Positions 3,098-11,860 of a stretch of DNA of 11,860 nucleotides are shown one piece after another. Source of the DNA: an uncultured Asticcacaulis sp. (GTDB lineage Bacteria > Pseudomonadota > Alphaproteobacteria > Caulobacterales > Caulobacteraceae). Every line of letters begins with the position of its first letter. Position 1 is the first letter of the stretch. The notes under the pieces are model-generated. The model made no database searches. It saw only the letters and a program-made list of their open reading frames with translations, and had not been told where the DNA came from. The stretch covers positions 1 to 11,860 of the forward strand of contig CAMLPZ010000117.1 of the NCBI GenBank assembly GCA_946482045.1, read 5' to 3'. The position numbers and the translations under genes were made by a program.

Positions 3098-3508
3098 TTA
3101 CGGTAGCGATTGCACGGTGTCGGCATCGACGGGAACGATATGACCACGTATCCAGCTGGCGAAGGCTTCGGCACTGAGTTCACCGTTCGCGACGACGCCG
3201 AAGCCAAGGTAGCAAGTTGTGTCGTCCGCGACGAGGCGATAGCCGTTTTGCGCCAGAAAGACTTCGATCGCAAGCAGGGCGGTTGTCAGGTTGTGGCTCA
3301 GGAAGAGCTCATCATGGGCCAGGCCGAAACCGTAGCAGGCGGCCAGGCTGGCGAGATCGGCCGTGCGGCTTTCGCTTAGAACCTCGGTGCGCGCCATTAG
3401 CATCTTAAGCATGCTGAGTTCGCGCAGGCCCGCAGGCCCGCCGTACTCCGCGGCCAGTTCCGCCTGAATGGCCGGAATGATACCGTCTTTCAGAAGTACG
3501 AACGCCAC
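3098..3508 (-). CDS. Doc/Fic-family (death-on-curing) toxin-like protein with degraded catalytic motif
   Basis: This 136-residue protein has the overall pattern of the Doc toxin family: a GGxxGLR segment at 23-29, an MLMARTEVL helix, then a Tyr-Gly-Phe-Gly-Leu-Ala helix leading into the place of the Fic motif and the typical TALLAIEVFLAQNGYRL helix after it. Doc toxins are kinases that phosphorylate elongation factor Tu, using HxFx(D/N)(A/G)NKR. Here that segment (67-75) reads ELFLSHNLT. The catalytic His is Glu, Asp/Asn is Ser, and Lys-Arg is Leu-Thr; only Phe69 and Asn73 remain. The protein may be inactive, have a changed reaction, or act as a structural partner. It starts with GTG 3 nt after the stop of the AbrB-like gene, so the two are translationally linked. 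The family call is fairly sure; activity is doubtful. Confidence 0.8.
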   Translation of the reverse strand: MAFVLLKDGIIPAIQAELAAEYGGPAGLRELSMLKMLMARTEVLSESRTADLASLAACYGFGLAHDELFLSHNLTTALLAIEVFLAQNGYRLVADDTTCYLGFGVVANGELSAEAFASWIRGHIVPVDADTVQSLP

Positions 3509-3511
3509 GGC

Positions 3512-3733
3512 CTATTTGCTCAGTTCGTTGAGGACATTGCGGCGTTTGCGCATCAGGGCCCGCGCTGTTTGCATCTGTTCGGCAAATTGAGGGTCCAAGG
3601 CCGACATGCGAAACCCTTCAGGTGTTTCGGTAATAAAGATGCTGTCACCCTTATCCAGCTTCAGCCGTATCAGCAATTCGCGCGGCAGGATAACGCCCAA
3701 TGAATTGCCGATCTTTGTGACCTTGAGTTCCAT
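3512..3733 (-). CDS. AbrB/MazE/SpoVT-fold antitoxin
   Basis: This small protein of 73 residues from the ATG at 3733 has the swapped-hairpin beta-barrel DNA-binding pattern MELKVTKIGNSLGVILPRELL, followed by a KGDSIFITE strand pair, as in MazE, PemI and AbrB-type antitoxins. The C-terminal third (about 45-73) is charged and probably helical and is the expected toxin-binding tail. The frame also opens 9 nt earlier at a TTG, but the only Shine-Dalgarno-like sequence (AAGG, 3745-3748) sits 11 nt before the ATG and too close to the TTG, so the ATG is preferred. It is expected to repress its own promoter and neutralise the Doc-like partner downstream. Doc is more often paired with Phd, but AbrB-fold partners are also known. 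Confidence 0.85.
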   Translation of the reverse strand: MELKVTKIGNSLGVILPRELLIRLKLDKGDSIFITETPEGFRMSALDPQFAEQMQTARALMRKRRNVLNELSK

Positions 3734-3755
3734 GTAAAACAACGCCTTCGTGACA

Positions 3756-3896: not shown

Positions 3897-5540
3897 TTAC
3901 GCCCGCTTAGGCAAGGCGATGTAGTTTTCTTTCGGCTTCTCGACAAAGCCATCCGCATAGACCTGTTCGACGAGGGCGCGGTGTGTCGGCAGCTCCTGTG
4001 TCGCCTGTTCACCGAAGCGCACGATACGGGCAAAGGCGGCGTCAGCCGCCACCTGGCGGGGGGTGAAGCCGCCGGCCTTGGCGGCGATATCGGTGCGGAA
4101 ATTCATGCCGTACAGGATGTACTGATAGTTGAAATAGGCGAAGGTATCGACGTCGTCCAGAAAGTCGAACCGCGACGGTGGCCGGTACTTCCACATGGCC
4201 AGCAGTTCGTTCAGTTCGTCCGGAATGGTGCGGGCGTCGGCATTGTCGCGCCAGAAAGGCTCATGCCGTTTGGTCACGCAGTAGTGCAGCTTGAGGAAGT
4301 TGACCGTTTTCTCGTTGCGCAGGGTCATTAGCGTGTTGAAGCGCTTGGCCTGGGCATCGACCGGGCCGTCGTGCGGGAAAAATTCGGTCAGCATGCCGAT
4401 GGCGACTTCGATCATCATGATGCCGGTGGCTTCCAGCGGCTCGAAGAAGCCGCCCGACAGGCCGACTGCGACGCAATTCTTGACCCACTGGGCTTCCCGG
4501 TAGCCGGTGTCGAACTTGATGACGCGCGTCGAATAGTCGGTGCCTTTCGGGCCGACATAACCGCGCAGGACGTCTTCGGCACGGGTGTCGCTGGTGTGGG
4601 CGGAACTGTAGACATAGCCGACGCCGCGCCGGGTGTTGAGCCCGATGTCCCACGTCCAGCCGGCCTCGTGGCCGGTCGAGACGGTATAGCTTTCGATCGG
4701 CGCGTCCGGCGCGTCATAAGGCACCTGGCAGGCAATGGCGCTGTCGGTCAGCAACTGGTGCTTGACCGATTTATATGGCGATTTCAGTGCCTTGCCGATC
4801 AGCACCGCCGCGAAACCGGTGCAGTCGATATAGAGGTCCGCGTCCAGCTCGCCGTGGCTGTCGGTCAAAATCGAGGCGATGGCGCCGTCGTCGCCCAGCT
4901 TCACATCGGTGATCCGACCCTGGAGGTGGGTGACGCCGAGGGAGACGGCGTGTTTCGCCAGCAGTTTGGCCAGCTTGGTGGCGTCGAAATGGTAGGCGTA
5001 ATTGAGCGGTCCGGCATAGCCGCCCTGGTGGAAGCGCTTGGGCGCTTTTTGTGCCTCGGCCACGCGCTTCTGGAAGGTGACGGCCTCGGCGAACGGCACG
5101 CGCGTCCCCGCGTCCTTAAGCAGCCAGTAGGGCAGGAGACCGGCGCCGTCGACGAAGTAAGGGGGATCGAACGGGTGGAAATAATGGGCGTGCCGGCCAT
5201 TTTCCGGTGTCAGCTCCCAATCGGCGAAGCGGATGCCCTGTTTGAAGGTCGCGGTCGCTTCGCGCAGGAAGGTCGCTTCGTCGATGCCGAGCGTCTGAAG
5301 CGTCGTGCGAATGGTGGCGAAGCTGCCTTCACCAACGCCGATAATGCCGATGTCGGGACTTTCGATCAGGGTAATACGCGGACATGTCGCCGGGTCCTGG
5401 CCCAGGACCTTTGCGAGATAACAGGCTGTCAGCCAGCCAGCGGTGCCGCCGCCTGCGATCAGGACGCGGCGGGGCTGAGAGGGGTTATGCTGTTCCACGG
5501 GGTTCCCGGCCGCGAGAGATACGATGCCAGAGGTTAGCAT
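3897..5540 (-). CDS. Flavin-dependent tryptophan-halogenase-family protein (copy 2, distal)
   Basis: This 547-residue cytosolic flavoprotein is of the PrnA/RebH type, which uses reduced FAD, oxygen and halide to halogenate an aromatic ring. The FAD-binding GGGTAGW is at 30-36. The Lys of TFKQGIRF (K100) aligns with the catalytic Lys79 of PrnA, and EPLEATGI (368-375) places Glu370 at the position of PrnA Glu346. The following Ser of PrnA is Ala here. The family's WxWxIP motif reads WTWDIG (295-300), with Gly for Pro. The tail is full length and ends in a lysine- and arginine-containing segment. It starts 28 nt after the stop of a close paralogue. Its N-terminus is about 20 residues longer than the paralogue's, and the ATG at 5540 has no Shine-Dalgarno sequence. 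Either the mRNA is leaderless or a downstream start such as the GTG at 5498 is used. The substrate is unknown; no flavin reductase gene is nearby. Confidence 0.9.
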   Translation of the reverse strand: MLTSGIVSLAAGNPVEQHNPSQPRRVLIAGGGTAGWLTACYLAKVLGQDPATCPRITLIESPDIGIIGVGEGSFATIRTTLQTLGIDEATFLREATATFKQGIRFADWELTPENGRHAHYFHPFDPPYFVDGAGLLPYWLLKDAGTRVPFAEAVTFQKRVAEAQKAPKRFHQGGYAGPLNYAYHFDATKLAKLLAKHAVSLGVTHLQGRITDVKLGDDGAIASILTDSHGELDADLYIDCTGFAAVLIGKALKSPYKSVKHQLLTDSAIACQVPYDAPDAPIESYTVSTGHEAGWTWDIGLNTRRGVGYVYSSAHTSDTRAEDVLRGYVGPKGTDYSTRVIKFDTGYREAQWVKNCVAVGLSGGFFEPLEATGIMMIEVAIGMLTEFFPHDGPVDAQAKRFNTLMTLRNEKTVNFLKLHYCVTKRHEPFWRDNADARTIPDELNELLAMWKYRPPSRFDFLDDVDTFAYFNYQYILYGMNFRTDIAAKAGGFTPRQVAADAAFARIVRFGEQATQELPTHRALVEQVYADGFVEKPKENYIALPKRA

Positions 5541-5541
5541 G

Positions 5542-5569
5542 AATTGGTATTATATCAATAGTACCAATT
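5542..5569 (-). promoter_or_regulatory. Inverted repeat with embedded TATAAT between the halogenase genes
   Basis: The arms AATTGGTA (5542-5549) and TACCAATT (5562-5569) are exact reverse complements separated by 12 bp. They fill the 28-nt gap and touch the stop codon of the first halogenase gene. On the minus strand a perfect TATAAT occurs at 5554-5549, only 9 nt before the ATG of the second gene, which fits a leaderless transcript. No clear -35 is seen. As RNA it would be an AT-rich hairpin just before the start codon. Operator, promoter or RNA hairpin are all possible. Confidence 0.5.
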
Positions 5570-7146
5570 TAAGCCTTCTTAGTGGAAGCCTTGTCCTTCT
5601 GGCGGTCGATAAAGCCGTTGCGATAGACCTGGTCGATCAGCTCGCGATGGGTGGGCAGGTCCTTGACGGCATGCTCGCCGAAGGTTCGGACCTTTTCGAA
5701 AATTCTCTGCGCGGCCTCGACATTGGGATAGGAGCCGCGCGCCGCTGTCAGGTCGGTATCGAAATCCATCCCGTAGAGGATGTACTGATAGCTGAAATAA
5801 GGGAAGGTCTCGACGTCGGTGAGGAAGTCGAAGCGCGACGGCGGACGATGCTTCCACATTTCGAGCATGTGGCGCAAGTCAGGGGGGATGGTCTCGTTCG
5901 CCGTATTGTCGCGCCAGAACGGTTCATCGCGCTGTGTCAGGCAGTAGTGCAGTTTCAGGAAGTTGACGATCTTCTCGCAGCGCTGGCGCATCAGCCGGTT
6001 GAACAGGTCGGCTGACGCATCAATGGGGCCGGCGTGCGGAAAGAATTCCGCGATCATGCCGGCGGCGACCTCAATCATGATGATGCCGGTGGCTTCCAGC
6101 GGCTCGAAGAAGCCCGCCGACAGGCCGACGGCGACGCAGTTCTTGACCCATTGGGTTTCGCGATAGCCGGGATCGAATTTGATGATGCGTGTGGTGACGT
6201 CCTTCGCCATCGGGCCGGAATAGGCGCGGACGACCTCTTCGGCGTGGTCGTCACTGGTATGATCGGAGCTGTAGACATAGCCGACGCCGCGCCGTTCGCT
6301 GAGGCCGATGTCCCAGGTCCAGCCGGCTTCGTGGGCGGTGGCGACCGTATAGGAATGGATCGGGCTTTTCGGCCCTTCGTACGGCACCTGGCAGGTTATG
6401 GCACGGTCGGTGAACAGATACTTTTGTACCGAGGTCTGGGTGACGCCCATCGCCTTACCGATCAAGAGCGCCGCAAAACCGGTGCAGTCAATATAGAGGT
6501 CGGCTTCAAGCTCGCCGTGTTCAGGCGAAGTCACCCGGGCGATCGCGCCGTCTTCGTCGAGGGTTACATCGCCGATGGTACCGCGCAGATGGCGCACCCC
6601 GAGCGCGATGCCGCGCTGTTCCAGGAGCCGGGCGAACTTCACGGCGTCAAAGTGATAGGCGAAATTCAAGGGGCCGGAGAAGTTGCCCTCGTAGGGACGC
6701 TTCGGCGCCTTGTCGGCATTCGCGACCCTGGGCTGAAAGGTGACGGCTTCGGCGAACGGCGCACGGGTGGCCTTGTCCTGGAGCAGCCAGTAGGGCAGGA
6801 GGCCGGCGCCTTCGACCCAGTAGGGCGCGTCGAAGGGGTGCAAGTAGTGCGAATGCCGGCCATCATTGGGCGTGCGCAGCCAGTCGACGAACTTGATGCC
6901 CTGCTTGTAGGTCGCCGTCGTCTCGCGCAGGAAGGTCGCTTCATCTATGCCGAGCGTCTGGAGGGTGGTGCGGATCGTGGGAAAGGTGCCTTCGCCGACG
7001 CCGATAACGCCGATTTCCGGGCTTTCGATGAGGGTGATTGCCGGCGTGCGGCCAGGATCGACGCCCAGGACCTTTGCCAGATAACATGCCGTCAGCCAGC
7101 CCGCTGTTCCGCCGCCGGCGATCAGGATGCTGCGTGGCGATGTCAT
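5569..7146 (-). CDS. Flavin-dependent tryptophan-halogenase-family protein (copy 1, proximal)
   Basis: This 525-residue paralogue of the next gene in the transcript is about two-thirds identical by eye along its whole length. It has the FAD-binding GGGTAGW at 11-17, the presumed catalytic Lys at position 81 in TYKQGIKF, WTWDIG at 277-282 in place of WxWxIP, and EPLEATGI at 349-355 with Glu351 at the position of the PrnA catalytic Glu. The conserved C-terminal RPPSRFDF and YQYILYGMDF blocks are present, so the gene looks intact. The ATG at 7146 starts only eight residues before the FAD motif, as in PrnA, with a GGGGA sequence about 9 nt upstream. It lies between the GH16 gene and its paralogue. 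The residues present suggest active halogenation. Tryptophan is not assured as the substrate, because this clade is named by homology. Confidence 0.92.
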   Translation of the reverse strand: MTSPRSILIAGGGTAGWLTACYLAKVLGVDPGRTPAITLIESPEIGVIGVGEGTFPTIRTTLQTLGIDEATFLRETTATYKQGIKFVDWLRTPNDGRHSHYLHPFDAPYWVEGAGLLPYWLLQDKATRAPFAEAVTFQPRVANADKAPKRPYEGNFSGPLNFAYHFDAVKFARLLEQRGIALGVRHLRGTIGDVTLDEDGAIARVTSPEHGELEADLYIDCTGFAALLIGKAMGVTQTSVQKYLFTDRAITCQVPYEGPKSPIHSYTVATAHEAGWTWDIGLSERRGVGYVYSSDHTSDDHAEEVVRAYSGPMAKDVTTRIIKFDPGYRETQWVKNCVAVGLSAGFFEPLEATGIIMIEVAAGMIAEFFPHAGPIDASADLFNRLMRQRCEKIVNFLKLHYCLTQRDEPFWRDNTANETIPPDLRHMLEMWKHRPPSRFDFLTDVETFPYFSYQYILYGMDFDTDLTAARGSYPNVEAAQRIFEKVRTFGEHAVKDLPTHRELIDQVYRNGFIDRQKDKASTKKA

Positions 7147-7196
7147 AAGGCGCTATCCCCGTTGGTTTTTCAGGAACAGCTAACATGAGCGGGCGT

Positions 7197-7215
7197 ACGG
7201 CGACAAGCGCGCCGT
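7197..7215. repeat. Short inverted repeat between the GH16 and halogenase genes
   Basis: ACGGCG (7197-7202) pairs with CGCCGT (7210-7215) around a 7-nt loop, in the 98-nt gap downstream of the GH16 stop codon. No T-run follows on the minus strand, so at most it is a weak pause or processing hairpin within the operon. Confidence 0.3.
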
Positions 7216-7244
7216 GCACCTTATTGCTGAGAAGTGAGCGGGGT

Positions 7245-8162
7245 TTAAGGCTTGGTGTAGACCCTGACGTAGTCGACCTTGAACTGCCAGGGCAGGGACG
7301 CGTCATCGATGCCGCCGACCCCGCCGAAATCGCCACCAACCGCGAGGTTCAGAATCAGGAATTGCGGGTGGATGAAGGGCCATTTGGTGTAGTCGCCCGA
7401 GCCATCATTGCGGAAGCTGAAATAGTTGCGCCCGTCGATCCCCATGGTGATGCGGTCAGCTGTCCAGGTCATTTCATAGACGTGCCATGCATTGCAGGCG
7501 TCGGGCACGTCAGTGAGCACGCTCTTCTGGGTGTTGATCGAATGGTAATAGGCGCGGGTATGGACACTCTGGTAGATCTTGCCCGCGTTCCAGCCGACAT
7601 ATTCCATGATGTCGATTTCGCCGTCATCGGGCCATGAATTATAAGGGGCCGAGGGGAGTTGCCAGATGGCCGGCCATGAGCCTTTGGGGCAGGTGACAAA
7701 TGCGCGGCTTTCGACGTGGCCGTACTGATAGCTCATCTTCGACAGCAGGCGTGCGGAGGTGTAGGTTTGGCCACCCCAGTCGGCGTTGCCGCTCAGGGAT
7801 TCTTTGCGTGCCTCGATGATCAGGTTGCCGCCCTCGACACGGGCGTTTTCCGGGCGGTTGGCCGAATAATATTGCTTCTCGTTGTTGAACCAGCCGTCCT
7901 TGTTGCGGAAGGTGTCATAGCTCCACTTGGCCGGGTCGGGCAGGCCGTCCGTGTTGAACTCGTCGGACCAGTGCAGCGTATAGCCGGTGGGAATTCCGCC
8001 CGGCTCGTTGATCTGGGTCGGGCCGGGGCCTGTGGCGGAAGACGAGGAACTGCTGGATGTTCCGCCGCCGGAGGTCTGGGCCGAGCCACCGCCGCAGGCC
8101 GCAAGGACGGTAAAGCTAAAGGCGACGGCTAGGCTTGTGCGCAGGCGATAGGCGGATGTCAT
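7245..8162 (-). CDS. GH16-family glycoside hydrolase lipoprotein
   Basis: This 305-residue endo-glycanase of family GH16, the laminarinase/beta-glucanase/agarase clan, cuts beta-1,3, beta-1,4 or galactan links with retention. Residues 1-22 are a signal peptide ending in the lipobox VLAAC, so Cys23 should be lipidated and the enzyme anchored in the outer membrane or envelope. A Gly/Ser-rich linker (24-45, seven Ser in a row) leads to the catalytic domain at about 55-305. The family signature EIDIME is at 182-187, giving Glu182 as nucleophile and Glu187 as acid/base, with GSWPAIWQLP upstream as the usual aromatic substrate-binding strand. The domain ends with VDYVRVY, the normal last strand of GH16. 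GAGGA lies about 8 nt before the ATG. It is downstream of a sugar-type symporter gene, consistent with polymer breakdown coupled to import. The exact polymer cannot be read from the sequence. Confidence 0.93.
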   Translation of the reverse strand: MTSAYRLRTSLAVAFSFTVLAACGGGSAQTSGGGTSSSSSSSATGPGPTQINEPGGIPTGYTLHWSDEFNTDGLPDPAKWSYDTFRNKDGWFNNEKQYYSANRPENARVEGGNLIIEARKESLSGNADWGGQTYTSARLLSKMSYQYGHVESRAFVTCPKGSWPAIWQLPSAPYNSWPDDGEIDIMEYVGWNAGKIYQSVHTRAYYHSINTQKSVLTDVPDACNAWHVYEMTWTADRITMGIDGRNYFSFRNDGSGDYTKWPFIHPQFLILNLAVGGDFGGVGGIDDASLPWQFKVDYVRVYTKP

Positions 8163-8186
8163 GGCGTTTCCTCTTTTTCTTAATTA

Positions 8187-8202
8187 ATGACATCGATGAC
8201 AT
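8187..8202. promoter_or_regulatory. Direct repeat ATGACAT x2 upstream of the GH16 gene
   Basis: ATGACAT occurs at 8187-8193 and 8196-8202, a period of 9 bp with a central ATCGAT, within the 71-nt gap between the symporter and GH16 genes and about 25-40 nt before the GH16 start. It could be a regulator site for an internal promoter. The repeat is seen; the function is a guess. Confidence 0.3.
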
Positions 8203-8233
8203 TTAGCCGCAACGTGTTTTTTCAATCGTAAGA

Positions 8234-9823
8234 TCAGAAGAAGGCGATGACGACGGCGCCGGTGACGATCAGCAGGCCGATCGAAAGCACACGATAGTTC
8301 TGATACCACTTTACCGTCTTCAAATGGACGGTTTCTGCTTCCCAGATCTCTTTGGAAAACATGAGCGGCATGATGCGGTCGGGATCGGGCGCGGGGCTGT
8401 AGCGGGTGCCGACGAAGAGCGCGGCAAGGCTGATGGCAAAGATGACGATGGCGGCCAGCAGAAAATGCAGGTTGATGATCTTGAACGCGATGTCGTCGGC
8501 GAAAAGAATGACGCTGGCTGCCGTCCCGAAGGCCAGGGCCGCGGCGGCTCCGGTGGAATTGGCCCGCTTCAGGAACAGGCCGCAGATAAAGACTGCCGCG
8601 ATCGGCGGCACGAAATAACACAGGACAGCCTGCAGGTACTGCCACAACGTATCCTTGAAGTGGATGATCTGCGGCGCCCACAGGATGGAAAGGGCCATGA
8701 CCGCCACCGTCGTCACCTGGCCGGTCCGGACCAGTCCGATCTCGCCCATGTCGGGTTTCAGCCGGCGGATGAAGTCCATGGTCACGAGCGTCGATGTCGC
8801 GTTGTAGATGCCCGACAGCCCCGACAGGACCGACACCAGGCAGGCGGCGACGATCAATCCGATCAGGCCGTGCGGCAGAATATCAAAGACGATGTGCGAG
8901 AAGACCTGGTCCGGCTTGTCGAGGTTGGGGAAGAGGGCGACGGTCGCCGCGCCCGGCAGGACGACGAGGAACAGGGTGGTCAACTTCAGGGCGCCGCCCA
9001 TCAAACTGCCCCAGCGGCCGTCGTCGAGCGTGCGGGCGGCGAGAACGCGTTGGACCATGGTCTGGTTGGTGCACCAGAAGTAGAAACCGATCAGGGGCAC
9101 ACCCGTTAAAAGCCCTGTCCATGGCATCGACGGATCGTCGGCCGGTTTGATCAGTTTCAGGTTTTCAGGCGGGACGTTGCTGAGCGCGGTCTGCCATCCG
9201 CCCGCGGCGTTGAAAGTGAACCAGGCGATGGCCGCGCAGGTCATGACGAGGACGAGCCCCTGCACCGACTCGACCATCAGCACGGCACGCAGGCCTCCCG
9301 CGACGAGAAAGCCACCGGCCAGCAGGGCCAGAAGCGCGCACACCTGCCATAGCGCCCAGCCAGGAAACAGGAGTTGAAATAGGACGGCGCCGGCGAAAAG
9401 TCCGCCGGCGGCATCGAGGAATATGCCGAGCACGATCGAGAGCGCCGACACGTAGGTGCGGACAAAGCGGCCGTAGCGCAGTTCCAGGAACTCCGGCACG
9501 GTGAAGACCTGGCTGCGAATATAGGTCGGCAGGACGAAGGCGCAGAAGACGGTGAGGACGACGGCCGCGCTCCATTCGTAGTTGAAGACCGAAATGCCAT
9601 GGGCATAGGCGCTGCCAGTCAGGCCAACCAGCGAGGTTACCGATATGGTCGAGGCGTAGAGGGAGAAGCCGATCTTGGGCCAGGTCGCCGAATTGCCGCC
9701 CAGGAAGTGGTCGCGCGCTTTCAGCGTCCGGCGCTTGTCGAACCAGCCATAGGCGAGCAATCCGGCAAAATAGGTGAGGATGATCCCGATATCGAGCAGG
9801 CTTAGGGCGGAGGCCTGAAACAT
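8234..9823 (-). CDS. SSS-family sodium:solute (sugar-type) symporter
   Basis: This 529-residue inner-membrane transporter has about 14 hydrophobic segments and is of the sodium:solute symporter family, most like the SGLT sugar branch. Evidence includes FLGGNSATWPKIGFSLYASTIS at 40-61, matching the family's first-core-helix region, a GLTGSAYAHG stretch (68-76), VPEFLELRYG (109-118), QTMVQRVLAARTL (254-266), and SVLSGLSGIYNATSTLVTMD (331-350), the family's eighth-helix signature. A final hydrophobic helix ends the protein. It is expected to import a sugar or related solute with sodium. It is the first gene of the four-gene minus-strand set, followed 71 nt later by GH16, which suggests the solute is a product of that hydrolase. 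The substrate cannot be fixed; myo-inositol, galactose or glucose-like sugars are all handled by relatives. Confidence 0.9.
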   Translation of the reverse strand: MFQASALSLLDIGIILTYFAGLLAYGWFDKRRTLKARDHFLGGNSATWPKIGFSLYASTISVTSLVGLTGSAYAHGISVFNYEWSAAVVLTVFCAFVLPTYIRSQVFTVPEFLELRYGRFVRTYVSALSIVLGIFLDAAGGLFAGAVLFQLLFPGWALWQVCALLALLAGGFLVAGGLRAVLMVESVQGLVLVMTCAAIAWFTFNAAGGWQTALSNVPPENLKLIKPADDPSMPWTGLLTGVPLIGFYFWCTNQTMVQRVLAARTLDDGRWGSLMGGALKLTTLFLVVLPGAATVALFPNLDKPDQVFSHIVFDILPHGLIGLIVAACLVSVLSGLSGIYNATSTLVTMDFIRRLKPDMGEIGLVRTGQVTTVAVMALSILWAPQIIHFKDTLWQYLQAVLCYFVPPIAAVFICGLFLKRANSTGAAAALAFGTAASVILFADDIAFKIINLHFLLAAIVIFAISLAALFVGTRYSPAPDPDRIMPLMFSKEIWEAETVHLKTVKWYQNYRVLSIGLLIVTGAVVIAFF

Positions 9824-9877: not shown

Positions 9878-9904
9878 TCCGGAAGTACACCACATAATCC
9901 GGAA
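9878..9904. promoter_or_regulatory. TCCGGAA pair spaced 20 bp
   Basis: TCCGGAA is found at 9878-9884 and 9898-9904, in the same orientation and two helical turns apart, in the 166-nt region between the divergent symporter and Nudix genes. Each contains the palindrome TCCGGA. The spacing is what paired operator sites would show, but two copies of a 7-mer could be chance. Confidence 0.3.
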
Positions 9905-9940
9905 TTTGAAAGTGTAAATCCTCGCACGAAGCCCCGGTGG

Positions 9941-9989: not shown

Positions 9990-10838
9990 ATGTCTGAAAC
10001 TGTAATCCGTGGCCGTTTCGCGCCCCCTACGAATGACGTGGTAGCCGCTATCCGGCAGGCGCTTTTGTCCGGAGGTGTGCAGGTGGCCGTGACGTGCGCG
10101 GATCTGGCCCGGTCCAGCCGGTTGCCATGGACAGCTGCCGAACGCGTGGACATGCTGCGTCTGGCCCTGGGCGAAGACGCCGGCCGCATTGTCATTTCAG
10201 AGGCGGATGGCCGCGGTGGCGAAACGATTGTGCACGACCCGGAGCCGGTCTCCGCCTTTCTGAATGGCGACGAGGTAGTGGTCCCGAAGGCTGTTGCTGA
10301 ATGGCTGGACGGGTTCCGCCGCACGGAAGAGTTTGACGAGATGGCGACAGAGGCGCGCTATGTTGCGGACTATAAGCGCGCCTGGGAGACAGCACCTTAC
10401 CCAGTGACATTGGTGACGGTCGATACCGTTATTGTCCATGCCGACCGCAACGGCGTCCCCCATGTTCTGCTGGTAAAGCGCGGCGCCATTCCCGGAAAGG
10501 GCAACTATGCCATACCGGGTGGCTTCATCGAGCCGGACGAATATCTCCTGGCGGCGGCACTACGTGAACTGCGCGAGGAAACCGGTCTGGCCTTGCCGGA
10601 TGACGAGGCGATGTCGCGGTTGAAAGGCAGGCAAGTCTTTGACGATCCGGAGCGGTCCTCACGTGGACGCGTCATTACCCACGCCTTCCATTTTGAATTC
10701 CCGGCAGGACCATTGCCCGATGTCGAAGGCCGGGACGACGCCGCTGAGGCGCGATGGGTTCCGGTGACCGAGCTGGCGCAATATCATGGTCGGTTCTTTG
10801 AGGACCACGGCGCAATTCTCAAGCACTTTCTTGGCTGA
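9990..10838 (+). CDS. NadM-type Nudix hydrolase with degenerate NMN adenylyltransferase domain
   Basis: This 282-residue protein is built like the bifunctional NMN adenylyltransferase/ADP-ribose pyrophosphatase NadM. The C-terminal half is a complete Nudix hydrolase: the box GX5EX7REUXEEXGU is exact at 178-200, preceded by the YKxxW-xAPYPxTxVTVD linker (128-145) and PGKGNYAIPGGF (168-179) typical of the NadM group. It likely hydrolyses ADP-ribose or a related nucleotide in NAD turnover. The N-terminal half (about 1-110) still shows GRF-x-P at 8-12 and a TAAERVDMLRLAL helix of the nucleotidyltransferase fold. The HxGH motif that should follow GRFxPF is replaced by TNDV (14-17), and the late ISxTxxR motif is not recognisable. 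The domain is also about 60-80 residues shorter than usual, so adenylyltransferase activity is probably lost. The gene stands alone and divergent from the symporter gene. Confidence 0.85.
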   Translation: MSETVIRGRFAPPTNDVVAAIRQALLSGGVQVAVTCADLARSSRLPWTAAERVDMLRLALGEDAGRIVISEADGRGGETIVHDPEPVSAFLNGDEVVVPKAVAEWLDGFRRTEEFDEMATEARYVADYKRAWETAPYPVTLVTVDTVIVHADRNGVPHVLLVKRGAIPGKGNYAIPGGFIEPDEYLLAAALRELREETGLALPDDEAMSRLKGRQVFDDPERSSRGRVITHAFHFEFPAGPLPDVEGRDDAAEARWVPVTELAQYHGRFFEDHGAILKHFLG

Positions 10839-10924: not shown

Positions 10925-11200
10925 TCAGGTACGCCGCGCCGTGTGGCGGAAGTGCAGAATTTGGATATTATCGCCGATAATGCGATAGGTGACGACGAAC
11001 GGCGTGCGGTTAATCGACAGATCGCGCGTATTCTTCTTACGTCCGGGGCGGCCGAGGTGTGGGTGCGTCAAAAGCCGGGTCGTCTGCTTTTGGACTTCGG
11101 CGAGTTGGTTGAGAGCGGCGCGGATGCTTGAGCGCGCGGTATGTTCAAGCGCCGCGTCACGGGTTTCGCGCGCGTCTTCGGTCCAATAGATTACGCTCAT
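10925..11200 (-). CDS. ParE/RelE-family toxin
   Basis: This 91-residue protein has the RelE/ParE fold pattern: an N-terminal strand and long helical pair (residues 1-45), an LLTHPHLGRPGRKKNTRDL segment (43-61), and the closing strands FVVTYRIIGDNIQILHFRHTARRT, whose I-x-x-L-H-x-R-H-x-x-R-R end is a hallmark of ParE-type toxins. ParE members poison DNA gyrase and RelE members cut mRNA on the ribosome. The tail and lack of the RelE catalytic set favour ParE, but this is not certain. The ATG overlaps the antitoxin stop codon as ATGA (11197-11200), giving translational coupling. It is the second gene of the operon, controlled by the antitoxin. Confidence 0.88.
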   Translation of the reverse strand: MSVIYWTEDARETRDAALEHTARSSIRAALNQLAEVQKQTTRLLTHPHLGRPGRKKNTRDLSINRTPFVVTYRIIGDNIQILHFRHTARRT

Positions 11201-11502
11201 TCGGCGTCAGGATTTTCAGCAAGACGCTTCAGCAGGGACTGACGTTGCCGCTCCATGTCGGCGACAACCTCTTCATGCGTGTACCATTTCGTACTAGGAT
11301 CATCCGCGGCCTTGATGGCGCGGTCGAGGTCAGCGTCCAGCCATTCGTCGTATTCGCGCTGTTCCCGCTGCTTCTTGACGAAATCGCGCATGAAGTCGCG
11401 CACGATCTGGGAGGCCGGACGGTGGCTTTCGGCGGCTTCTTTCATGAAGGCATCGCGTAAGTCAGCTTCGAGCTTGAGCGTGAAGACGGCTTCCTTGGAC
11501 AT
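11197..11502 (-). CDS. Ribbon-helix-helix-type antitoxin of the ParE-like toxin
   Basis: This 101-residue protein has an N-terminal FTLKLEADLRDAFMKEAAESHRPASQIVRDFMRDFV pattern, the strand-helix-helix of the ribbon-helix-helix DNA-binding dimer (residues 4-42). A long charged tail (43-101) follows, expected to be disordered until it wraps around the toxin. The ATG has a perfect AGGAGG five bases upstream (11508-11513), stronger than the toxin's coupled start, so more antitoxin than toxin should be made. It is expected to bind the palindrome at 11521-11552 and repress the operon. ParD, RelB or CopG naming cannot be settled by eye. Confidence 0.85.
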   Translation of the reverse strand: MSKEAVFTLKLEADLRDAFMKEAAESHRPASQIVRDFMRDFVKKQREQREYDEWLDADLDRAIKAADDPSTKWYTHEEVVADMERQRQSLLKRLAENPDAE

Positions 11503-11558: not shown

Positions 11559-11860
11559 TCAATTCGCCGCTGCCCCAAACTGAAAGGCGCTTATCGCGAT
11601 ACCGGTGGGGCCCAGGCTGTCTTCGTGATAGGTGACCGCGGCGCCATCGCCGTCGGCAGCGCCGGCGACGACCATGAGCGGGATCAGATGATCTTCGCGC
11701 GGGTGGCAATCATGGGCGTTGGGCGCTGACGCCCAGTTTACAAGGCCTGTGGGATTTGTCAGGACAGTCTCGCGCAGCCAGCGATCGAAAGCATGCGATG
11801 CCGGGCCGCTATTGGCCGGGTCGCGGCCCATCAGGCGGGGAATGCTGTGAAAGCTCATGC
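11559..11860 (-). CDS. LigB/DODA-type extradiol dioxygenase, C-terminal part (truncated by window edge)
   Basis: Only about the last 100 residues of a protein that is usually about 260 long are present; the 5' end is beyond the right edge, and the Met at 11858 is most likely internal. The segment matches class III ring-cleaving dioxygenases of the 4,5-DOPA/YgiD type: SFHSIPRLMG, then AFDRWL, the W-x-x-AP-x-A turn, and HPREDHLIPLMVVAGAA, whose last His is in the position of a metal ligand. Relatives open catechol-type rings using iron or zinc. The reading frame ends with TGA at 11559, 6 nt before the palindrome of the toxin-antitoxin operator. The substrate is unknown. Confidence 0.85.
   Translation of the reverse strand, partial: MSFHSIPRLMGRDPANSGPASHAFDRWLRETVLTNPTGLVNWASAPNAHDCHPREDHLIPLMVVAGAADGDGAAVTYHEDSLGPTGIAISAFQFGAAAN

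Follow-up and report, generated by a model that had tools for sequence, protein, structure and literature searches.

Why should genes of the flavin-dependent halogenase (FDH) family stand among genes for the breakdown and uptake of a polysaccharide? The question is raised by a stretch of 11,860 nucleotides (nt) from an uncultured Asticcacaulis sp. (contig CAMLPZ010000117.1 of assembly GCA_946482045.1), referred to below as the window, in which four genes at 3897-9823, all on the minus strand, encode a sodium/sugar symporter (SSF), a glycoside hydrolase of family GH16 and two FDHs that we call HAL-A and HAL-B. Our answer, which we hold about as readily as we doubt it, is that the locus belongs to a glucan-responsive regulon of the LacI type in Asticcacaulis, with FDHs that halogenate small electron-rich aromatic compounds. 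Many FDHs found in genomes have no known substrate, and the candidate regulon links specific FDHs to a polymer, a receptor and a LacI repressor, which would give a concrete growth condition for finding substrate and product. If this is true, halogenation belongs to everyday carbon acquisition and extends beyond specialised metabolism. The features on which the argument turns are these:

8234..9823, minus strand: SSF symporter, SGLT-type Na+/sugar cotransporter of 529 amino acids (aa), by PF00474 and its SGLT1 and vSGLT matches
7245..8162, minus strand: GH16 endo-beta-1,3(4)-glucanase and predicted lipoprotein, by PF00722, PDB 6xof and the motif EIDIME
5569..7146, minus strand: HAL-A, FDH family, 525 aa, by PF04820, PDB 2pyx and conservation
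3897..5540, minus strand: HAL-B, the second FDH, 547 aa (ATG at 5540) or 533 aa (GTG at 5498), by PF04820 and PDB 9ltb
8188..8201, minus strand: LacI-type palindrome TGTCATCGATGTCA, candidate operator for GH16-HAL-A-HAL-B, 25 nt 5' of the GH16 start
9901..9920, minus strand: possible decayed LacI half-site 5' of SSF, weakly suggested by an alignment of upstream regions

An earlier note on this DNA had described four same-strand genes for a symporter, a glycanase and two intact halogenase-like proteins, and this is borne out by a check of the open reading frames, by family scans and by the catalytic residues. It gave the gaps as 71, 82 and 28 nt. The SSF/GH16 gap is indeed 71 nt, but that between GH16 and HAL-A is 98 nt and that between HAL-A and HAL-B probably 70 nt, as the frame 5' of the GTG at 5498 is not conserved in A. 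solisilvae and this GTG is probably the HAL-B start. We infer that the four genes are co-transcribed. A promoter and terminator scan of the window gave 2 promoter-like and 7 terminator-like sites, as against 2.0 (standard deviation 1.5) and 5.8 (standard deviation 2.4) in shuffled sequence, and for a possible inverted repeat seen by eye at 5543-5568 in the HAL-A/HAL-B gap the repeat finder gave none of at least 11 nt.

The closest genome compared is A. solisilvae BE327 (locus L001), with which a 10.8-kb stretch of the window aligns at 87% and whose HAL-A is 94% identical. Values of dN/dS against A. solisilvae are 0.034 for SSF, 0.085 for GH16, 0.087 for HAL-A and 0.062 for HAL-B, so all four genes appear to be under purifying selection. 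The four-gene order is found again in A. solisilvae, and three other Asticcacaulis (L002, L004 and L006) have SSF-GH16-HAL-LacI with flanks that differ, which argues that the unit is not a chance juxtaposition; a further locus, L037, has OprB-SSF-HAL without GH16. It could be proposed that the halogenase genes merely hitch-hike, with no functional link to the glucan genes. FDHs are abundant in the genus, with 12 to 29 matches at E <= 1e-40 in each of eleven Asticcacaulis genomes, making chance proximity easier, and the palindrome pattern discussed below also stands before genes unrelated to sugars. However the recurrence of the unit with different flanks speaks against the proposal, as do dN/dS values below 0.1, the rarity in the genome of the palindrome class, and the presence of an FDH directly between TonB-dependent receptor (TBDR) and LacI genes in 17 more distant loci, across distant taxa. 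We give it next to no credence.

With regard to the halogenases themselves, both match PF04820 over almost its whole length (437 bits for HAL-A and 427 for HAL-B against a cut-off of 21; profile positions 2-444 and 1-447 of 458), and they are 68% identical to each other. Their closest solved relatives are FDHs of the tryptophan-halogenase type, 2pyx (labelled Tryptophan halogenase) and then 9ltb and 9lu2, the best match being 2pyx for HAL-A (E 4e-125) and 9ltb for HAL-B (E 3e-116). HAL-A and HAL-B resemble these enzymes in full-length alignment, the FAD motif GxGxxG (GGGTAG in both), the catalytic Lys, EPLE-x-(T/S) and WxWxI. They differ from that type in reading WxWxIG for WxWxIP, as 2pyx also does, in a changed Glu position of 8fov, and in their setting in a glucan operon. 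The residues in HAL-A are K81, W276-x-W278-x-I280-G281 and E351, and HAL-B has the equal catalytic residues.

For comparison we used the best 80 of 262 loci encoding a relative. In these and the window 86 FDH genes were called (none in L065 and L072), and the alignment and tree have 85 rows, the fragment L062 being left out; the tree is a quick IQ-TREE run with SH-aLRT support only. Both window proteins have the catalytic Lys, the second EPLE Glu, and the two Trp and the Ile of WxWxI, each of which is conserved in 84 of the 85 rows; Gly ends the motif in both and in 75 of the rows. The Lys aligns with that of 8fov, and we take it to correspond to K79 of PrnA, and the Glu in EPLE(S/A)(T/S) to E346 of PrnA. 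In BrvH the catalytic Lys is K83 (PMC5945002).

HAL-A and HAL-B look able to halogenate small ring-shaped molecules, with bromine or chlorine. The FDH fold might instead serve other flavin chemistry, for example hydroxylation, of which there are two hints: the window FDHs weakly match the NCBIfam model of a monooxygenase, QhpG (31-32 bits, where the cut-off is 240), and the WxWxIP motif ends in Gly. But 2pyx has the same Gly, the PF04820 scores are far over the cut-off, and both proteins keep the catalytic Lys and Glu and the Thr-Gly positions of the halide loop. We consider such chemistry quite improbable.

In this family FADH2, O2 and a halide give a hypohalous acid (HOX), and halogenation then proceeds under guidance of the Lys and Glu. 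HAL-A and HAL-B would do likewise, with FADH2 from a separate reductase, and as neither has a visible signal peptide both are predicted to be cytosolic. Free tryptophan is a doubtful substrate, since the Glu in FESYSY of 8fov (labelled Tryptophan 5-halogenase), presumably a Trp-binding residue, aligns with Ala in HAL-B and with Pro in the HAL-A column. RebH is not in the alignment; its residues Y454, Y455, E461 and F465 hold the amino and carboxyl groups of Trp (PMC5945002, which also outlines the HOX chemistry). Two further FDHs, BrvH (6frl) of the alphaproteobacterium Brevundimonas and the xanthomonad enzyme Xcc4156 (6y1w), are more distant from HAL-A (E 4.5e-73 and 4.8e-79 respectively). 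BrvH, whose gene has a neighbouring FDH gene and whose natural substrate is not known, brominates free indole at C3 with low activity, and does not brominate tryptophan (PMC5945002). This, with the doubt over free tryptophan, favours small electron-rich aromatics as targets, the likeliest being aromatic aglycones or indole or phenol compounds met during growth on glucan-bearing biomass.

The indole activity of BrvH is also what one might expect if the FDHs made a halogenated signal or defence molecule from endogenous indole or phenol. Glucan, from fungi, algae or plant litter, would then be only the switch, and regulatory linkage would be seen without any metabolic need or role in sugar use. 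This is the main rival to our answer. It accords less well with the absence of a biosynthesis gene among the eight window proteins scanned, and with the presence of some 30 FDHs in a genome, most of them near a TBDR, which fits receptor-matched substrates better than a single signal. We judge it rather unlikely.

In the case of the symporter, the PF00474 match has an E value of 5e-57 and the best PDB matches are SGLT1 (E 9e-61), SGLT2 and vSGLT (E 6e-48). Aligned with SGLT1, it has the same Glu in NYEW and the same Gln in YLQAV, and Arg in place of one Lys; these Glu, Gln and Lys we take to be sugar-binding residues of SGLT1. Its top NCBIfam model, PRK10484, scores 270 bits, under the model cut-off of 401. 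Membership of the SSF family, SGLT1 and vSGLT as nearest structures, and the aligned Glu and Gln are the grounds on which we call it an SGLT-type symporter.

The GH16 protein (PF00722, E 7e-19) has the ExDxxE motif as EIDIME and as its closest solved relative a beta-1,3(4)-glucanase, as expected for a laminarinase. The best PDB match is 6xof (E 5e-91), which we take to be SCLam, an endo-beta-1,3(4)-glucanase from a soil metagenome with the same catalytic motif, and in the chain 6xqf the first Glu of EIDIME is changed, presumably by the E144S mutation. A SCLam mutant of that name appears in PMC7961093, where the enzyme is described as cutting beta-1,3 and beta-1,4 bonds of laminarin and barley beta-glucan. 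Unlike SCLam, the window protein is a predicted lipoprotein, with a signal peptide ending in the lipobox VLAAC and then a Ser-rich linker (read by eye), and it is encoded in an FDH operon. Its nearness to SCLam makes beta-glucan more probable as the target than galactan, which had been put forward as the other candidate polymer. At the cell surface the GH16 lipoprotein would cleave beta-1,3(4)-glucan into fragments, to be taken up by a TonB receptor and trimmed by a GH3 beta-glucosidase, and the SGLT-like symporter would pass sugar over the inner membrane. In A. solisilvae the genes for the receptor and GH3 are 7 to 16 kb distant; here they presumably lie past the end of the window.

A regulatory connection between these parts is suggested by the palindromes. 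TGTCATCGATGTCA at 8188-8201 is the only zero-mismatch site in the window and lies inside a 20-nt stretch identical in A. solisilvae; the preceding 16-nt stretch is also kept and the rest of the gap has partly drifted. We propose it as a candidate LacI operator. In the group of FDHs from SSF-GH16 loci the palindrome is before GH16 in the window and A. solisilvae, and before SSF in L002, L004 and L006, where it reads GGAAAGCGCTTTCA; 9901-9920 of the window aligns with the latter and keeps the right half only. The 5-Mb A. solisilvae genome has just two sites of the class TGWCATCGATGWCA, both upstream of FDH operons (a reversed control gave 0). One site precedes GH16-HAL-HAL. The second, at a distance of 16 kb, has a LacI gene on one side and on the other the four genes TBDR-FDH-FDH-GH3 on a single strand, followed by FMN_red (WrbA-like) and OsmC genes, so that the TBDR about 14 kb upstream of HAL-A sits behind the same palindrome class as GH16-HAL-HAL. 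The best PDB matches of this GH3 protein are GH3 enzymes, mostly labelled beta-glucosidase. The LacI protein shares 73% identity with those encoded next to FDHs in A. taihuensis and strain AC466, and A. taihuensis has the same palindrome class at two places, either side of a GH1 gene.

The association of FDHs with sugar genes extends beyond this genus. Within 8 kb of the 86 FDHs we find a TBDR in 41 cases, a KefB-type antiporter in 39, PIN in 35, LacI in 31, an MFS sugar transporter in 19, GH1 in 13, GH3 in 9, SSF in 8 and GH16 in 7. A group of 36 rows has antiporter and toxin-antitoxin genes as neighbours (the antiporter-TA group). For the 49 FDHs outside it sugar genes are 45 of the 165 neighbours within 2 kb, as against 13 of 250 at 6-10 kb, and TBDR genes 34 of 165 as against 4 of 250. 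Inside it sugar genes are 0 of 171 neighbours within 2 kb, TBDR or sugar-gene query matches are 2 of 308 neighbours within 4 kb, and within 8 kb a TBDR is near 4 of the 36 and a LacI gene near 2. The gradient is descriptive and no test of a prior hypothesis, as the representatives used for labelling were picked after the loci had been viewed and the neighbours themselves define the antiporter-TA group.

A branch with support of 90 sets the 8 rows of the SSF-GH16 clade apart in the tree. The sister group of this clade, with 41 rows (support 80), comprises the 36 antiporter-TA rows, L009 and four Asticcacaulis rows, three of the latter having LacI, GH1 or sugar MFS genes labelled nearby. Linkage to sugar genes is seen in the window's clade and in the outgroups, and is missing from most of the sister group. 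The view that halogenases of this kind are found with sugar-use genes thus holds for Asticcacaulis and the outgroup clades, many of them with LacI-type palindromes, and fails for most of the sister group. The palindrome pattern is present within 450 nt upstream of 21 of the 32 FDHs of TBDR, GH or LacI loci, 3 of 7 with TBDR only, 0 of 36 in the antiporter-TA group and 0 of 2 others, the pattern having been defined from upstream regions already viewed, so that the count is not independent of its discovery. Random 450-nt windows have it in 2.0% of cases and other genes in 39 of 1047, and a Fisher test that ignores relatedness gives p 9e-21 for 21/32 versus 39/1047. By gene, it precedes 27 of 48 TBDR and 3 of 6 SSF genes.

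The scale of the family in A. solisilvae bears on what the FDHs act upon. There are 29 at E <= 1e-20 and 30 by PF04820, the most in the 40 family genomes; the next PF04820 counts are 19 (A. taihuensis), 9, 6 and 5, and 18 of the 40 have none, several of the lowest counts being weak part-matches of a profile that also matches in E. coli. The genome has 80 TBDR and 2 GH16 matches. No fewer than 23 of the 29 FDHs are within 5 kb of a TBDR, as against 5.3 expected from the fraction of the genome covered (binomial p 2e-12, overstated since FDHs cluster), and several are directly downstream of one; the HAL-A and HAL-B orthologues are among the six that are not that close. This agrees with the suggestion that halogenases belong to TonB-receptor loci, as do five loci that we take to be from Xanthomonadales (L054, L055, L057, L068 and L071). 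We would go further with less assurance, and suggest that halogenation may be a routine, receptor-matched part of glycan use in Caulobacterales and their relatives, each of many TBDR/LacI regulons having its own FDH for the aromatic that enters with a particular glycan, and the window pair being the beta-1,3(4)-glucan branch. We regard this as possible and somewhat doubtful.

The same receptor-by-receptor pairing could mean that the FDHs target aromatic residues in proteins or peptides, be it their own TonB receptor or a peptide taken up from outside, as the peptide halogenase MibH does; the open active site of BrvH has been likened to MibH (PMC5945002). However there is no TBDR in the HAL-A/HAL-B operon, the antiporter-TA group is almost devoid of TBDR genes within 4 kb, and an enzyme of the cytosol could reach its target only prior to export; we think this reading very unlikely. 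In the A. solisilvae set the Lys and the Glu are each kept in 26 of 29. In L125, L126 and L127 (C4:174084, C8:140384 and C4:243824) Ser or Thr stands in place of Lys and Asp in place of Glu, and the FAD motif has other residues for two of its three glycines. Each adjoins intact FDHs and two are within 2 kb of a TBDR; they are possible pseudo-enzyme partners.

Several observations weigh against the proposed regulon and the part of the FDHs in it. No TBDR or flavin reductase is among the eight window proteins scanned, and the A. solisilvae TBDR closest to HAL-A is 13.9 kb distant. The A. solisilvae locus includes an FMN_red gene, to which none of the other 79 loci has a match. None of the 8 FDHs of the SSF-GH16 clade has such a palindrome within 450 nt of its own start, the pattern is rare before GH1 (3/13), GH3 (2/9), LacI (2/38) and MFS (0/26), and it is also found before Phd (5/32), PIN (6/35) and KefB (5/42), so that it is not specific to sugar genes. 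The A. taihuensis FDH is not behind either palindrome of that genome, and the AC466 locus (L044), with its similar LacI, has no copy of the class. In the sister group 36 of the 41 FDHs are without sugar neighbours; halogenases apart from sugar genes in relatives were what the earlier note had said would count against it, and in this part of the tree that is what is found. For a close relative of HAL-A or HAL-B we found no activity in the open-access papers searched.

The suggestion in that note of a lignin-carbohydrate phenolic as substrate draws weak support from the LigB, WrbA and OsmC genes of the A. solisilvae locus, which also has a YceI gene, and none from the other 79 loci. In single-sequence phmmer searches of the 80 loci and the window, WrbA, OsmC and YceI were matched in A. 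solisilvae only, and LigB there and in the window only. The window has at 11559-11858 the C-terminal end of a LigB-type gene for an aromatic ring-opening dioxygenase, which is complete in L001 at 4794-5600; by itself the fragment gave no Pfam match.

With regard to known systems, the A. solisilvae regulon resembles the CUT loci, TonB-receptor loci for carbohydrate utilisation (PMC1790865), in having TBDR, GH, inner-membrane transporter and LacI genes, and is unlike them in including FDH genes. The word halogenase is absent from the main text of PMC1790865, and TonB from the main texts of the BrvH (PMC5945002) and Xcc4156 papers. Among the matches listed in open-access literature, by title and start of abstract, none joined FDHs to a LacI/TBDR sugar regulon, and FDHs are not described as members of a sugar regulon in the parts covered of PMC5945002, PMC8269204, PMC7336383, PMC1790865, PMC7190382, PMC11340318, PMC11337851, PMC13352647 and PMC7961093. 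Among the Sphingomonas genes tabulated in PMC11340318 as affecting colony morphology is one for a tryptophan halogenase, and PMC11337851 reports rebH/prnA transcripts raised in dispersant-treated seawater and names TBDRs separately.

In the tree HAL-A groups with L001 and L037, and HAL-B with L001, L002, L004 and L006. We reject a recent tandem duplication, as each of the two has a starred subclade of its own in which other species are also found; the pair predates these Asticcacaulis species, with each half kept alone somewhere. The HAL-A orthologue is single in L037 and the HAL-B orthologue in L002, L004 and L006, and searches of these four genomes, which are drafts and in the case of L037 a metagenome-assembled genome, gave no second orthologue among the best matches. 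A heteromeric enzyme, which had been one explanation for the two copies, is thus unlikely as an obligate arrangement, and in some relatives one FDH would suffice. The orthologue groups (3 and 5 rows) have 35 fixed differences, some near the catalytic Lys (Y80F, K85R and V87A), which would fit diverged specificity. A tblastn search of a plasmid set with HAL-A gave 95 records, the best 60% identical, and no close copy.

The neighbouring genes of the window, outside the proposed operon, are:

9990..10838, plus strand: shortened NadM/Nudix protein, a divergent neighbour, by PF00293 and partial NCBIfam PRK05379
3512..3742, minus strand: MazE-type antitoxin, downstream neighbour, by PF04014 (E 5e-07)
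3098-3508: Doc-like toxin, next after the MazE-type gene, by a weak DOC_P1 match (21.1 bits against a cut-off of 38.65)

The NadM/Nudix gene is the boundary on the 5' side of the operon; its protein has 282 aa as against 327 aa in L037, and NCBIfam models for the bifunctional enzyme cover only parts of it. Toxin-antitoxin-like pairs lie on both sides of the operon, at 10925-11502 (a weak ribbon-helix-helix match and ParE) and 3098-3742 (the MazE-type and weak Doc-like genes). A c-di-GMP protein with MHYT-PAS-GGDEF-EAL domains is encoded at 186-2963, and is also found downstream of the operon in L001 and L037.

The antiporter-TA group (L003, L005, L008, L010-L017, L019-L035, L038-L043, L045 and L058) has a KefB-type Na_H_Exchanger gene within 8 kb of 36 of the 36 FDHs, PIN near 35, Phd near 32 and an Alginate_exp-type protein near 15. 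Its hosts are Sphingomonadales, Caulobacter, Phenylobacterium, some Asticcacaulis and Burkholderiales, and the side of the block taken by the FDH varies among lineages. Neighbourhoods distinct from that of the window are also seen at L044 2328-5775, with other FDHs beside Cupin_8 and SapC genes, and at L007 10019-12245, beside a DUF6445 gene.

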